A stretch of 64,000 bases of DNA. Source: Anaerolineae bacterium (GTDB lineage: Bacteria > Chloroflexota > Anaerolineae > Aggregatilineales > Phototrophicaceae). The translations under genes and the position numbers were made by a program. The DNA is taken from NCBI GenBank assembly GCA_022843745.1, contig JALHNB010000040.1:1-64000 (forward strand), in the 5' to 3' direction. The notes beneath the pieces were generated by a model, which was not told the DNA's origin, made no database searches, and saw only the letters and a program-made list of their open reading frames with translations. Below, piece by piece: positions 58,636 to 64,000 of this stretch; positions within the stretch are counted from its first letter, which is position 1, and each line of letters begins with the position of its first letter.

Positions 58636-59670
58636 TCAATGATTTGGCGCGGGGCCAGTGGATGAACGAATGACAAGCTGACCGGTGATATGTACATTTT
58701 GTGGCGCGAGTTTGGGATTCACAAGGCGGGAGAAAACAAGCCGCGCTGATGTCCGCCCCAATTCTTCAGCATCCATCCGCACGGTCGTCAGCGGTGGGTT
58801 GACATAACTTGCTAAAGCAATGTCGTCGAAACTGGCGATAGAAATATCTTCTGGTACACGTAACCCACGTTCGGCAATCGCCCGCAGCGCTCCAATCGCC
58901 AATAAGTCATTGATAACGACCAGTGCTGTCACACGCGGGGAGCGATCCAGCAGCCGTCCAGCCGCCTGATAGCCCTCTTCAAGCGTTGTGCCGCAGTATT
59001 CGATTAAATTATCTTCAGTGGGCAAGCTCGCCTTTTGCAATGCGGCCTGATACGCCGTCAAACGATCCCAGCCCATCTGATCGTGGGCTACCCCATAAAT
59101 CAGGCCGATGCAGCGATGTCCTAATGAGAGCAGATACTCCATCAACTGCGTCGCGCCCTTTTGGAAGCTCGTGGCGACGACATCTATGCCATCCACATTT
59201 CCGATACCTGCATTCATCATCACCAACGGTTTACGGCGCTGTACCAACTGCTCGATTTCATCATTGACCTGATTTTCATAGGTAAGCACCAAAATCAAGC
59301 CATCAATACGCCGCCGCGATAAGGAACGGACGCTGTGAAGTTCGCGATCCGGGTCAAGTGATGTGCTGATGAGCAGCAAATCGTAGCCTTCGCTCTGCGC
59401 TTCCTGCTCAACCCCCGAAGCGATTTGCCAGTAATGCGGATTGTGCATATCGGGTATCAGCAGTCCAATCGTGTTTGTCGTACCGGAACGCAGCGATTGT
59501 GCCATCGCGTCCGGCTGATAGCCCAATTCATTAATCGCGTGAAGAACACGCTGCCGCGTTTCTTCGGTAATCGAGATCGGCCCTTCAGTCAGACCATTAA
59601 CCACATAGGATACAGTCGCACGGGAAACACCCGCCAACCGTGCAACGTCGATTTGAGTAGGCCGCTTCAT
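58636..59670 (-). CDS. LacI-family transcriptional repressor
   Basis: This 344-aa protein has the N-terminal helix-turn-helix and hinge (TQIDVARLAGVSRATVSYVVNG, GYQPDAMAQSLRSGTTNTIGLLIPD) and a periplasmic-binding-like sensor domain. It should repress the divergent sugar ABC operon and release on binding a sugar. The intergenic region holds two ACACGTGT palindromes. The sites lie where they would block both divergent promoters, so autoregulation is likely. The sugar is not known. Confidence 0.93.
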   Translation of the reverse strand: MKRPTQIDVARLAGVSRATVSYVVNGLTEGPISITEETRQRVLHAINELGYQPDAMAQSLRSGTTNTIGLLIPDMHNPHYWQIASGVEQEAQSEGYDLLLISTSLDPDRELHSVRSLSRRRIDGLILVLTYENQVNDEIEQLVQRRKPLVMMNAGIGNVDGIDVVATSFQKGATQLMEYLLSLGHRCIGLIYGVAHDQMGWDRLTAYQAALQKASLPTEDNLIEYCGTTLEEGYQAAGRLLDRSPRVTALVVINDLLAIGALRAIAERGLRVPEDISIASFDDIALASYVNPPLTTVRMDAEELGRTSARLVFSRLVNPKLAPQNVHITGQLVIRSSTGPAPNH

Positions 59671-59861: not shown

Positions 59862-61568
59862 ATGCTTCATCGAGTGCGATTTTTATTAGCTCTTATGTTG
59901 ATCGGCATCATGCTGGTCGCTTCGTTTGGCAGCCTGACACTTGCTCAGGACGCTACCGAAGAAGCCGATGTTGTTGAAATCGAAGGCAGTGACAGCGGCG
60001 CAGCAGCCGAACTCTCTGGCACGATTACGATCAGCTTCCAGGGCAATGACACTCAAACCTGGGAATCGATGTGCGCAGCCTACCAGGAACTTCATCCTGC
60101 GGTGAGCTGCGTCGTAGAACTGCGTCCCGGCGAAGGTTATCAGGAATTTATCCGCGCCCAGTTTGCGGGCGGCGATCCTACCTTCTCACTGGTTAACGCC
60201 AACGTCGTCGCCGATCTGATTAATGACAAAGCATTCCTCGATATGAGCGCTTATCTCGACAAGGTTAGCCCCTATACCGGCAACCCCTGGCGTGATGATA
60301 TGGACGAGGCCGCTCTCGGCAATATGCGCAACCCTCTCACAGGCGAACTTCCGGTACTGAACCTGGAAACTGTACAGGTGTTGTGGTTCTACAATAAAGA
60401 TGCATTCGCCAAAGCTGGTATCCTGGAAGACGCTGAAGCAGTTGCAGCAACCGAAGCTAATCAACCTACCTGGGAACAATTCCTGAACTGGTGTGATGCG
60501 CTGAAAACGGCTGGTTATACCCCAGTTGCTATCGCAGGTGATTATGACTCGTTCTGGGCAGGCGCTTTCGGCTGGATTGCCCGTATGTACGCCGACCAAT
60601 ACACCCGTGATGAGGCCGAAATCGTCCGGTGCCAACCCGGCGATTACTGCTTCCGTGAAGGTGTCGATGACCAATGGGTATACGACCCCACCGATCCATT
60701 CAACGATGATAATACCGATATCACCTTCAATCCTGTTCGCAAGATGATCGCCCTGCGCGATGGCGTGCAATCGGTTAGCGGGCCAGCATGGCGGGCTATG
60801 TACGAAAACTTCAAAGCCTTTAGTGATCGCTGCGCACCCGATGGCTGGATCGGCACCAAAGATGCCTACCCACTATTCCTGACTCAGAAAGCGGCTATCC
60901 GTCTTGATGGCGCATGGCTGTTGAGCCAATTCGAAAAGAATATTCAAAGTCTCGCCGAAGGTACCTATTACACAGCCGCCGAAGAAGGCGCTCCGACCCC
61001 CACCCCGTCGGCAGATGACCAGGCAGCAACCGTGTTTGAAATCGGCTCGTTCAACAACCCCAGCATGGAAGGCCCAGAAGTGGATTCACCGGCGCGTACC
61101 ATTGAAGTCAATATCGGCTTCTGGGGCGTTCCGAAGAAGGATCAGGCGCAAAACGATCTGGAAATGGACTTCCTGATGTTCGTAACCAGCCCAGAGGGTT
61201 ATGGCCTTTACCTGCAAAACAGGCTGGATGCTAATAACCCGAACGGTGGCGTGAACGGCCCACCAGCAGTTCGCAATGCACAACTTCCCGAAGATTTAGC
61301 GGCTCGCTTCGCTGGTTTACGTCTGATTGGCAATACCGAGAAAGATACAGCAGGTTCGTATCGTTCACGCGGTGTCAATGACTTCCAGCCATCCGTTCGC
61401 GAATGGGTAGACCTGGCACAGCAATATTTCACGAATGAAATCACGCTGGATCAATTTCTGGAAGGCTACCAGCAATCCCTGACCAATAACTTCGACGGAA
61501 TCCTTGAACATAGTAACATCACCCCTGAGGATCTCGAAGACCCGACCAAGAAACCTGTCAATCAATAA
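59862..61568 (+). CDS. ABC transporter sugar-binding protein, family 1, long form
   Basis: This 568-aa solute-binding protein has a signal peptide (RVRFLLALMLIGIMLVASFGSLTLAQ), then a Glu/Asp/Ser-rich spacer to residue 50, and a binding core starting ISFQGNDTQTWESMCAAYQELHP. An inserted segment TPTPSADDQAATV sits at about 385, making it longer than most family members. A Trp- and Tyr-rich cleft is suggested by WYFNK-like and FWAGAFGWIARMY stretches. An agggag ribosome-binding site lies eight bases upstream. Substrate unknown. Confidence 0.9.
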   Translation: MLHRVRFLLALMLIGIMLVASFGSLTLAQDATEEADVVEIEGSDSGAAAELSGTITISFQGNDTQTWESMCAAYQELHPAVSCVVELRPGEGYQEFIRAQFAGGDPTFSLVNANVVADLINDKAFLDMSAYLDKVSPYTGNPWRDDMDEAALGNMRNPLTGELPVLNLETVQVLWFYNKDAFAKAGILEDAEAVAATEANQPTWEQFLNWCDALKTAGYTPVAIAGDYDSFWAGAFGWIARMYADQYTRDEAEIVRCQPGDYCFREGVDDQWVYDPTDPFNDDNTDITFNPVRKMIALRDGVQSVSGPAWRAMYENFKAFSDRCAPDGWIGTKDAYPLFLTQKAAIRLDGAWLLSQFEKNIQSLAEGTYYTAAEEGAPTPTPSADDQAATVFEIGSFNNPSMEGPEVDSPARTIEVNIGFWGVPKKDQAQNDLEMDFLMFVTSPEGYGLYLQNRLDANNPNGGVNGPPAVRNAQLPEDLAARFAGLRLIGNTEKDTAGSYRSRGVNDFQPSVREWVDLAQQYFTNEITLDQFLEGYQQSLTNNFDGILEHSNITPEDLEDPTKKPVNQ

Positions 61569-61650: not shown

Positions 61651-63666
61651 ATGCCCGGCCTTCCTCGTTTAAGGCATATTACGCTATCGCTGATTTTCAT
61701 CGCGTGTGCGGCGATATTCTCCCTTCCAGCGTTGGCGCAAAGCGGACAATGGGAACAACAAATTGGCGATGTCGTCTACAGCACGGCGCTTTCTGCCGAT
61801 GGAAGCGTTCAAATCGTTGGCAGTCGTAACAATCGTGCCGCCGCTTATGACGCACAGGGCAATCTGCTCTGGGAATTCAAACCAGGCAGCACTGTCTGGG
61901 GCGTTTCCACATCCGAAGATGGGCAATGGACAGCAGTTGCCAGTGAAGATCGCAATGTTTATCTTCTAAATGCCCAGGGGGAGCAGGTCTGGGCCTTTCG
62001 TTCGACGCGCATCATGCTGGATGTCGCCGTTTCGCGCGATGGTTCTCGCATTTTCGCTAGCGATGAAGGCCGGATAGTCTATTTTCTGGATCGTGAAACA
62101 GGCGAACCTCTCTGGCAAGCCACCCTGAGCAATATTGCTGATCGAGTAACAATCTACGGTGGCAGTACCATCCGTGCCATTGCAGGCAACCGCGATTCGC
62201 AAGTGATCCTGTTCGGGCCGGATGGCAAGCAGCTTTGGCAAAAACAGCTTTCTGACAGCGTTTTGAGCGTTGGTGTGAACGGCAACGGCACAAGCGTTGT
62301 GGCAGGCACGCTCGACGGCAAAGTCACACTCATCAACGGTGCAAATTCCGATACAGTCTGGCAGATTGAACTGCCGAACGAGGTGGTCTGCAATACGCGC
62401 GAATCGTCAAACTGCGTCAAGGTCGCGATCTCCGCAGATGCCAGCCGAATTCTGGTTGGCACGATCAATGGGGATGTCTACCTGCTCAATGGCACAGATG
62501 GTTCGATTGTTCAGACACAGACCGCAGGCGCTCCGGTGACTTCTGTCTCGATTTCACGCGATGGGCAAACGCTGATGTTTGCTACCCGTGAAGGGATCGT
62601 CAACTCAACCAACACCGCCGTCGCTGCTGCTGAATTCGCTGCTGCCCAGGAGCGCCAGCGCAACCTGACTATTGGTATCCCTGTCGCACTTTTGCTCGTA
62701 CTGGCCGTATTTACCGGATGGGTGCGCGGCACTGAAACCGGACGAAATTTTTGGACTGTACAAATTCGTGAGCCGCGAGAATTTTTAGTCCGTGTCTGGC
62801 GCAGCCGAACTTCCTATATCCTCATCGCGCCAACAATTATTCTCTTACTGATATTCAATTATTACCCAGCCGCTTCTGGCCTTTACCATTCATTTACTGA
62901 ATGGGATGGTGTCAAAACCGAATGGGCGGGTTTGTCCCAATTCCAAGCGCTTCTCAACAGCCAGTATTTCTGGATTGGTGTTCAGAATGCGCTGATTCTG
63001 GCGATAGCGGCCTTCGTTAAACTGTGTGTGCCGCTGTTTGTCGCGGAGTTGATCTTTCACATTCGCAGCACCAGCCTGCAATACGCCATCCGTACAATGT
63101 TTATTATCCCGCTGGTCGTTCCCGGCGTGGTCGGCATTCTCTTGTGGGTCAATATCTATGACCCCAATATCGGCCTGCTCAATCAAACCCTGACACTTTT
63201 AGGTCTCGATGACCTTACGCGCTCCTGGCTAGGCGATAAAACAACTGCCCTGCCTGCAATCATCGCGATTGGCTTACCCTGGGTCGGCCCGTTTGCCTTG
63301 CTGATCTTTTATGGCGGCCTGATTTCTATCCCACAGGAATTATTTGATGCTGCCAAAGTCGATGGCGCAACCTGGTGGACTCGCTTCTGGCGTATCGACT
63401 TACCGCTGTTGATGAGTCAGGTTAAACTTTTGGTTATTCTGGCGTTTATTGGCAGTGTTCAGGAGTTCCAGAGTATATTCTTAACCACAGGCGGCGGGCC
63501 AGGTAGTTCGACCTATACGCCTGCGCTTGAATTGTATTATCAGGCGACTCGTTTCAATAACTATGGCCTGGCTTCAGCGATGGGAACGGTGCTGTTTATC
63601 GTAATTTTGGGCGGCACAATTATCAATTTGCGCTATGTGCGCTCGCAAACTGAGTATGAGGCGTAA
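61651..63666 (+). CDS. Secreted beta-propeller fused to a MalF-type ABC permease
   Basis: This 671-aa protein has an N-terminal signal peptide (LIFIACAAIFSLPALAQ). About seven WD40/PQQ-like blades follow (residues 30-325, with repeats such as STALSADGSVQIVGS, GVSTSEDGQWTAVAS, DVAVSRDGSRIFAS and SVSISRDGQTLMFAT). One connecting span (IGIPVALLLVLAVFTGWV) leads to a complete CUT1 permease from about 375 to the end with the EAA loop FDAAKVDGATWWTRFWRIDLPLL. A cleavable signal or anchor places the propeller outside the cell, next to the binding protein. Both parts are in one uninterrupted frame. An aggag site precedes the ATG by seven bases. Confidence 0.88.
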   Translation: MPGLPRLRHITLSLIFIACAAIFSLPALAQSGQWEQQIGDVVYSTALSADGSVQIVGSRNNRAAAYDAQGNLLWEFKPGSTVWGVSTSEDGQWTAVASEDRNVYLLNAQGEQVWAFRSTRIMLDVAVSRDGSRIFASDEGRIVYFLDRETGEPLWQATLSNIADRVTIYGGSTIRAIAGNRDSQVILFGPDGKQLWQKQLSDSVLSVGVNGNGTSVVAGTLDGKVTLINGANSDTVWQIELPNEVVCNTRESSNCVKVAISADASRILVGTINGDVYLLNGTDGSIVQTQTAGAPVTSVSISRDGQTLMFATREGIVNSTNTAVAAAEFAAAQERQRNLTIGIPVALLLVLAVFTGWVRGTETGRNFWTVQIREPREFLVRVWRSRTSYILIAPTIILLLIFNYYPAASGLYHSFTEWDGVKTEWAGLSQFQALLNSQYFWIGVQNALILAIAAFVKLCVPLFVAELIFHIRSTSLQYAIRTMFIIPLVVPGVVGILLWVNIYDPNIGLLNQTLTLLGLDDLTRSWLGDKTTALPAIIAIGLPWVGPFALLIFYGGLISIPQELFDAAKVDGATWWTRFWRIDLPLLMSQVKLLVILAFIGSVQEFQSIFLTTGGGPGSSTYTPALELYYQATRFNNYGLASAMGTVLFIVILGGTIINLRYVRSQTEYEA

Positions 63667-63681
63667 CCGGAGACGTTCTAG

Positions 63682-64000
63682 ATGGCAACGACCACTTCCC
63701 CTAGCAAACCTTTAAACAGCGAAATGCCGATTGTCGCCAGCGGCGATGCCCGACGACGTGAAGCTTTCGGTCAATTTCTGATCCTTCTCAGCCTGATCGT
63801 GCTGTTGGCGCTGACACTGGTTCCAATTGTTCTGATGATCTTCTTCTCATTGAAAGACAATGGGCAAATTTACGGACGCTTTTGGGGAATGCCCAATCCC
63901 GTCCGCTGGGAAAACTATTCGTCTGGCTACGCTGCCATGTCGCGCTATATCACCAACACTCTGACCTATTCGAGCATTTCCGTTTTGGGTGTCGTGTTTC
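63682..64000 (+). CDS. MalG-type sugar ABC permease, 5' part
   Basis: The ATG at 63682, 16 bases after the fusion stop, opens a frame that runs off the window end. The first 106 residues include a short N-terminal tail, a first span ILLSLIVLLALTLVPIVLMIFF, and the loop GQIYGRFWGMPNPVRWENYSSGY typical of MalG-like permeases. It should pair with the propeller-permease. Confidence 0.88.
   Translation, partial: MATTTSPSKPLNSEMPIVASGDARRREAFGQFLILLSLIVLLALTLVPIVLMIFFSLKDNGQIYGRFWGMPNPVRWENYSSGYAAMSRYITNTLTYSSISVLGVVF

Follow-up and report, generated by a model that had tools for sequence, protein, structure and literature searches.

Few bacterial transporters are as common as the ABC sugar importers. 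Most work on how their solute-binding protein (SBP) engages the permease concerns MalFGK2, whose MalF subunit has its P2 loop between TM3 and TM4. In enterobacterial MalF this loop is large and contacts maltose-binding protein (PMC8134467; PMC3328499), so the small outer loops that an earlier note on this DNA took to be normal for CUT1 permeases are not a property of all of them. Here we describe a MalF-type permease whose chain also contains a seven-bladed propeller. This fusion is a real importer variant, present in many Chloroflexota and some Bacillota. The open-licence papers searched yielded nothing relevant on a propeller–permease fusion, and a systematic survey of WD40 proteins in prokaryotes says nothing of ABC or signal peptides in its main text (PMC5587647). 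The variant is apparently undescribed, although individual members may already carry database annotations: its parts are known, and what is new is the propeller, at the P1 position.

The propeller–permease gene and its operon

Within the window (the whole 64,000-nucleotide stretch analysed), the fusion occupies 61651..63666 on the forward strand as a single uninterrupted open frame of 671 codons, with an ATG start behind a plausible ribosome-binding site (ggag). Upstream lies the gene for a 568-residue extracytoplasmic SBP (59862..61568, +; Pfam SBP_bac_1, 61.2 bits; AlphaFold2 mean pLDDT 88.8) that has a signal sequence and, by a lipobox check, no lipobox; downstream, a MalG-type second permease (63682..64000, +) runs beyond the window to contig position 64575. 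The three genes are adjacent, in the order SBP, fusion, MalG, in the intact loci that we read. A LacI/RbsR-type regulator (58636..59670, −; Pfam LacI and Peripla_BP_3, NCBIfam RbsR-like) diverges from the operon, as it also does in loci L052 and L056.

The fusion protein opens with a signal sequence or first hydrophobic segment (residues 1–29, 61651..61737; hydrophobic segment 10–28) bearing an AxA site, A27-L28-A29, and continues into the propeller (residues 34–321, 61750..62613). A continuous helix (residues 322–360, 62614..62730) then supplies an outer stalk of about 18 residues and TM2 (340–358), and a linker that is positively charged by charge count and assigned to the cytoplasm (residues 361–388, 62731..62814) leads to a six-helix CUT1 core of the MalF/UgpA type (62815..63663), recognized by six hydrophobic segments and by its BPD_transp_1 and UgpA/MalF matches. 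The EAA motif ELFDAAKVDGATWWTRFWRIDLP (63337..63405), the ATPase-coupling loop of CUT1 permeases, is intact (ELFDAAKVDGA...IDLP) and kept in the aligned fusions.

Both halves are recognized by profile models. The propeller region (residues 33–322) scores above the Pfam cut-offs for both PQQ_2 (62.7 bits) and WD40 (31.7 bits; cut-off 27), its sequence being intermediate between the two families. BPD_transp_1 matches residues 472–653 (60.1 bits, cut-off 26.4), and UgpA/GlcT/MalF models match residues 384–669; the score with the MalF equivalog model is 74.6 against a cut-off of 392. Only about 38 residues separate the segments at 390–408 and 447–465, leaving a short P2 loop in place of the large one of MalF. 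We found BPD_transp_1, the EAA motif, an adjacent SBP and MalG, and a MalK-type ATPase in the genome. Judged from these signatures, the fusion has every testable feature of a CUT1 permease and differs from MalF proper in having no large P2 loop, and we predict a CUT1 ABC oligosaccharide importer in which the fusion serves as the MalF-type subunit and carries a propeller in its first extracytoplasmic loop.

In an AlphaFold2 model built from 27 sequences (mean pLDDT 79; pTM 0.52, too low for a reliable arrangement of propeller and permease), the propeller itself reaches a pLDDT of about 95 and consists of 28 strands forming seven four-stranded blades, the ring being closed by strand 34–37; from its last strand the single helix leads straight into TM2. 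The frame, the Pfam matches and this model bear out the earlier note's description of a signal peptide, about seven blades and a MalF-type permease in one frame. A fold search, whose list was filled by propellers and which covers the propeller fold and not that of the permease, placed WD40 propellers closest (2ymu, Z 39.3; PkwA, 5yzv, Z 38.2).

All 19 fusions examined have the same segment order, in which a first hydrophobic segment is followed by the propeller, a second segment and the permease segments; most total eight hydrophobic segments, as in MalF. Positively charged residues in these proteins are concentrated in the stretch that joins segments two and three, and the positive-inside rule accordingly puts this linker in the cytoplasm and the propeller outside. 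Together with the signal sequence, this topology supports the outer-face placement that the earlier note had suggested, and we strongly infer that the propeller sits outside the cell, in the first extracytoplasmic loop, raised off the membrane by the helical stalk. Since, judged by connectivity, both links to the propeller leave from the same face, the opposite, top face, made of the d-a and b-c loops, should in the modelled fold be directed away from the membrane. Overall conservation of the propeller is low, and the positions that vary least are largely glycines, aspartates and tryptophans of structural character. Two arginines in b-c loops, R59 of blade 1 and R101 of blade 2, are kept from Chloroflexota to Bacillota; R59 occupies D-1, a WD40 top-face interaction position directly before the aspartate position that marks such residues (PMC3419727). 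In the window group, the sequence of the loop between blades 5 and 6 contains a cysteine pair (C247 and C255) that is compatible with a disulfide in an exported domain.

Binding proteins and neighbouring genes

When SBPs from a scan of named genomes were compared with that of the window, those of fused systems (L052–L088, L111, L115) scored 262–843 bits; SBPs of propeller-less relatives gave 50–72 bits or no match, the exception being L089 at 197 bits. Members of the distant fusion subgroup scored lower than other fused systems, at 107–211 bits (partial sequences). By these scores, a distinct SBP type is tied to the fusions and almost never accompanies propeller-less permeases. Fused systems also share an SBP insert at about residues 246–290. 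We rejected this insert as a propeller-specific feature because L089 carries it without a propeller, and its presence there implies that the SBP type predates the fusion; probably, then, the SBP type came first and the propeller later. A missing lipobox likewise fails as a general reason for the propeller: it is absent from the SBPs of the window group and of Thermomicrobiales, yet Caldilineaceae and Bacillota have SBPs that carry it (the regular expression used misreads two rows, as L111 carries LQGC and the L053 match sits upstream of the real start). Beside the propeller-less permeases L089–L129, blastp at E 1e-5 found no separate propeller gene.

No ATPase gene was seen in the fusion operons read, and five MalK-type ATPases (OB_MalK matches) encoded elsewhere in the window's genome are candidates for pairing with the importer. 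Nearby genes resemble alpha-L-rhamnosidases (GH78-like and GH106), GH127, GH99, an alpha-L-fucosidase-like enzyme and a sulfatase, and a fucosidase/GHL6-like gene follows the fusion both on contig C11 of the window's genome and in G744, a genome from outside the class. Given these glycosidases and the sulfatase, the importer probably takes up an oligosaccharide derived from complex glycans of plants or algae.

Further genes of interest lie near some of the operons. Directly downstream of MalG, members of the window group encode a conserved 750-residue protein with a marginal GH127 match (L052:10872-13124, L056:10972-13230), which may represent a glycosidase not yet described and so hint at the substrate; the contig of the window stops before this site. 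Related-looking proteins of about 690 residues, starting MPRY and with no Pfam match, are encoded near the fusion operon in a chloroflexotal locus (L058:1537-3606) and a clostridial one (L115:2429-4486).

Other CUT1 permeases of the window's genome are enlarged as well. In a 672-residue MalG-type permease (L152:906-2924, contig C74), the first membrane segment is set apart from the core by several hundred additional residues, in which Pfam found no match, and two more MalG-type permeases have long insertions before the core (L155:948-2846, contig C8; L153:1-1094, contig C12), one of them with extra hydrophobic and alanine/glutamate-rich stretches. These predicted proteins suggest that the CUT1 permeases of this genome often carry large additions. 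Separately, a 652-codon frame (L150:300-2258, contig C41) encodes tandem MalF-like and MalG-like CUT1 halves in a single chain.

Possible roles of the propeller

The conserved anatomy of the system supports a scheme in which the SBP would deliver the oligosaccharide to a channel formed by the fusion and MalG. Import would be driven by a shared MalK-type ATPase encoded elsewhere, with the permease working normally, a step that we consider strongly inferred. The propeller would stand beside the docking site and keep a partner protein near the pore, much as P2 is placed to do in enterobacterial MalF.

With moderate confidence, we take the propeller to be a docking platform for a partner protein, the dedicated SBP being the likeliest one. 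This is favoured by the constant pairing with one SBP type, by the P1 position next to the pore, by the habit of most WD40 propellers of binding proteins, and by the retention of R59 and R101 in b-c loops between phyla. In a partial mirror-tree test, no correlation between propeller and SBP was left once permease and MalG were accounted for (r = 0.007, a value reached in 479 of 500 permutations); co-evolution thus gave no signal in excess of shared ancestry, and this null result counts against docking, as does the SBP insert of the propeller-less L089. We counted against it, too, that the propeller evolves faster than the other parts, its mean tree distance being 1.81 compared with 0.84 for the permease.

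That rapid divergence could instead reflect a propeller tracking differing substrates, as would suit the main rival, a carbohydrate-binding module that captures polymer or oligosaccharide and enriches the substrate around the importer. The glycoside hydrolases and sulfatase nearby hint at complex plant or algal glycans, and residues 62–119 match the lambda-carrageenase propeller model PF25292 at 27.8 bits, against a cut-off of 26.8; several other propeller models, however, outscore PF25292. The best fold matches are WD40 propellers, which are mostly protein binders, although sugar binding is still compatible with that fold, and the top conserved positions of the propeller are chiefly the structural residues noted above. 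On balance, we think glycan capture possible but unlikely.

Alternatively, the propeller might anchor the importer to a component of the envelope, such as a surface hydrolase, the S-layer or the wall, as a scaffold unrelated to substrate delivery. WD40 propellers are common scaffolds, and both the long helical stalk and the low overall conservation of the domain would be in keeping with such a role, but the operons read encode no conserved surface protein besides the SBP and MalG, and we regard anchoring as improbable.

Distribution, origin and relation to known importers

Full-length fusions occur in many genomes. Homologues at 60–68% identity occur in independent related genomes, and the window's own genome holds a full-length paralogue at 47% identity on a second contig and a more distant one, at 29% identity overall, on a third. 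A survey of the class recovered full-length fusions in 29 of 396 genomes, the 29 belonging to six families; in score, fusions (E 1e-148 or better) stand well apart from propeller-less permeases (E 1e-110 or worse). A sample of the phylum added one fusion genome from outside the class (G744). The named-genome scan extended the range to Caldilineaceae, Thermomicrobiales, Clostridiales and the isolate Paenibacillus cymbidii R196; seed genomes included, the family around P. cymbidii has fusions in 7 of 104 sampled genomes and the class around the clostridial copy in 5 of 341. With an uninterrupted frame, paralogues in its own genome and full-length copies in many independent genomes, one of them the Paenibacillus isolate, the fusion is extremely unlikely to be two genes run together by a frameshift, a sequencing error or a misassembly, and this disposes of the earlier note's two doubts, that the fusion was such an error and that it was unique to this assembly.

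A maximum-likelihood tree of the permease part alone groups all 26 fusions together (ultrafast bootstrap 92; SH-aLRT 70), as do 93% of its bootstrap trees; the group adjoins the propeller-less L089 and is consistent with one origin. Two apparent exceptions were rejected, L016 as a gene cut by a contig end and L122 as a read-through of an upstream frame. One subgroup consists of the window group and its near relatives, and another of the 47% paralogue with the Caldilineaceae; Bacillota fusions fall inside the clade that these two form. The third subgroup is distant (L003, L017, L018, L045, L047, L049), with a longer N-terminus and no AxA site. The simplest reading of this sequence tree, at moderate support, is one gain without a sampled loss. 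WD40 propellers are mostly described as scaffolds inside cells; here one was probably built into a membrane transporter a single time and then kept.

More tentatively, we propose that these chloroflexotal and Bacillota systems form a lineage of their own among type I ABC sugar importers. In it, a WD40 propeller that occupies the first outer loop of the MalF subunit would serve as a permanent receptor for the SBP or a glycan, a second solution to the task of MalF P2. Because its outer domain is large, conserved and able to fold separately, such a lineage lends itself to asking whether active recruitment of SBPs or substrates by permeases takes place.

Among described systems, MalF of MalFGK2-E resembles the fusion in its eight hydrophobic segments, CUT1 core with EAA motif, MalG partner, dependence on an SBP and extra outer domain (PMC8134467; PMC3328499). 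Unlike the fusion, MalF has as its extra domain an unrelated fold in P2; in the fusion the propeller precedes TM2, in P1, and P2 is short. Six-helix CUT1 permeases of the UgpA/GlcT/SugA type provide the best sequence match to the permease core and have neither an N-terminal propeller nor the two extra hydrophobic segments of the fusion. Bacterial WD40 propellers such as PkwA (5yzv) and the repetitive Nostoc propeller (2ymu) have the same seven-bladed fold (Z 38–39) and are not part of transporters. In importers such as GlnPQ, SBP domains are fused to the permease, so that, as in the fusion, an extracytoplasmic domain is tethered to the permease chain; in contrast to these, what the fusion tethers is a propeller, and its SBP stays a separate protein.
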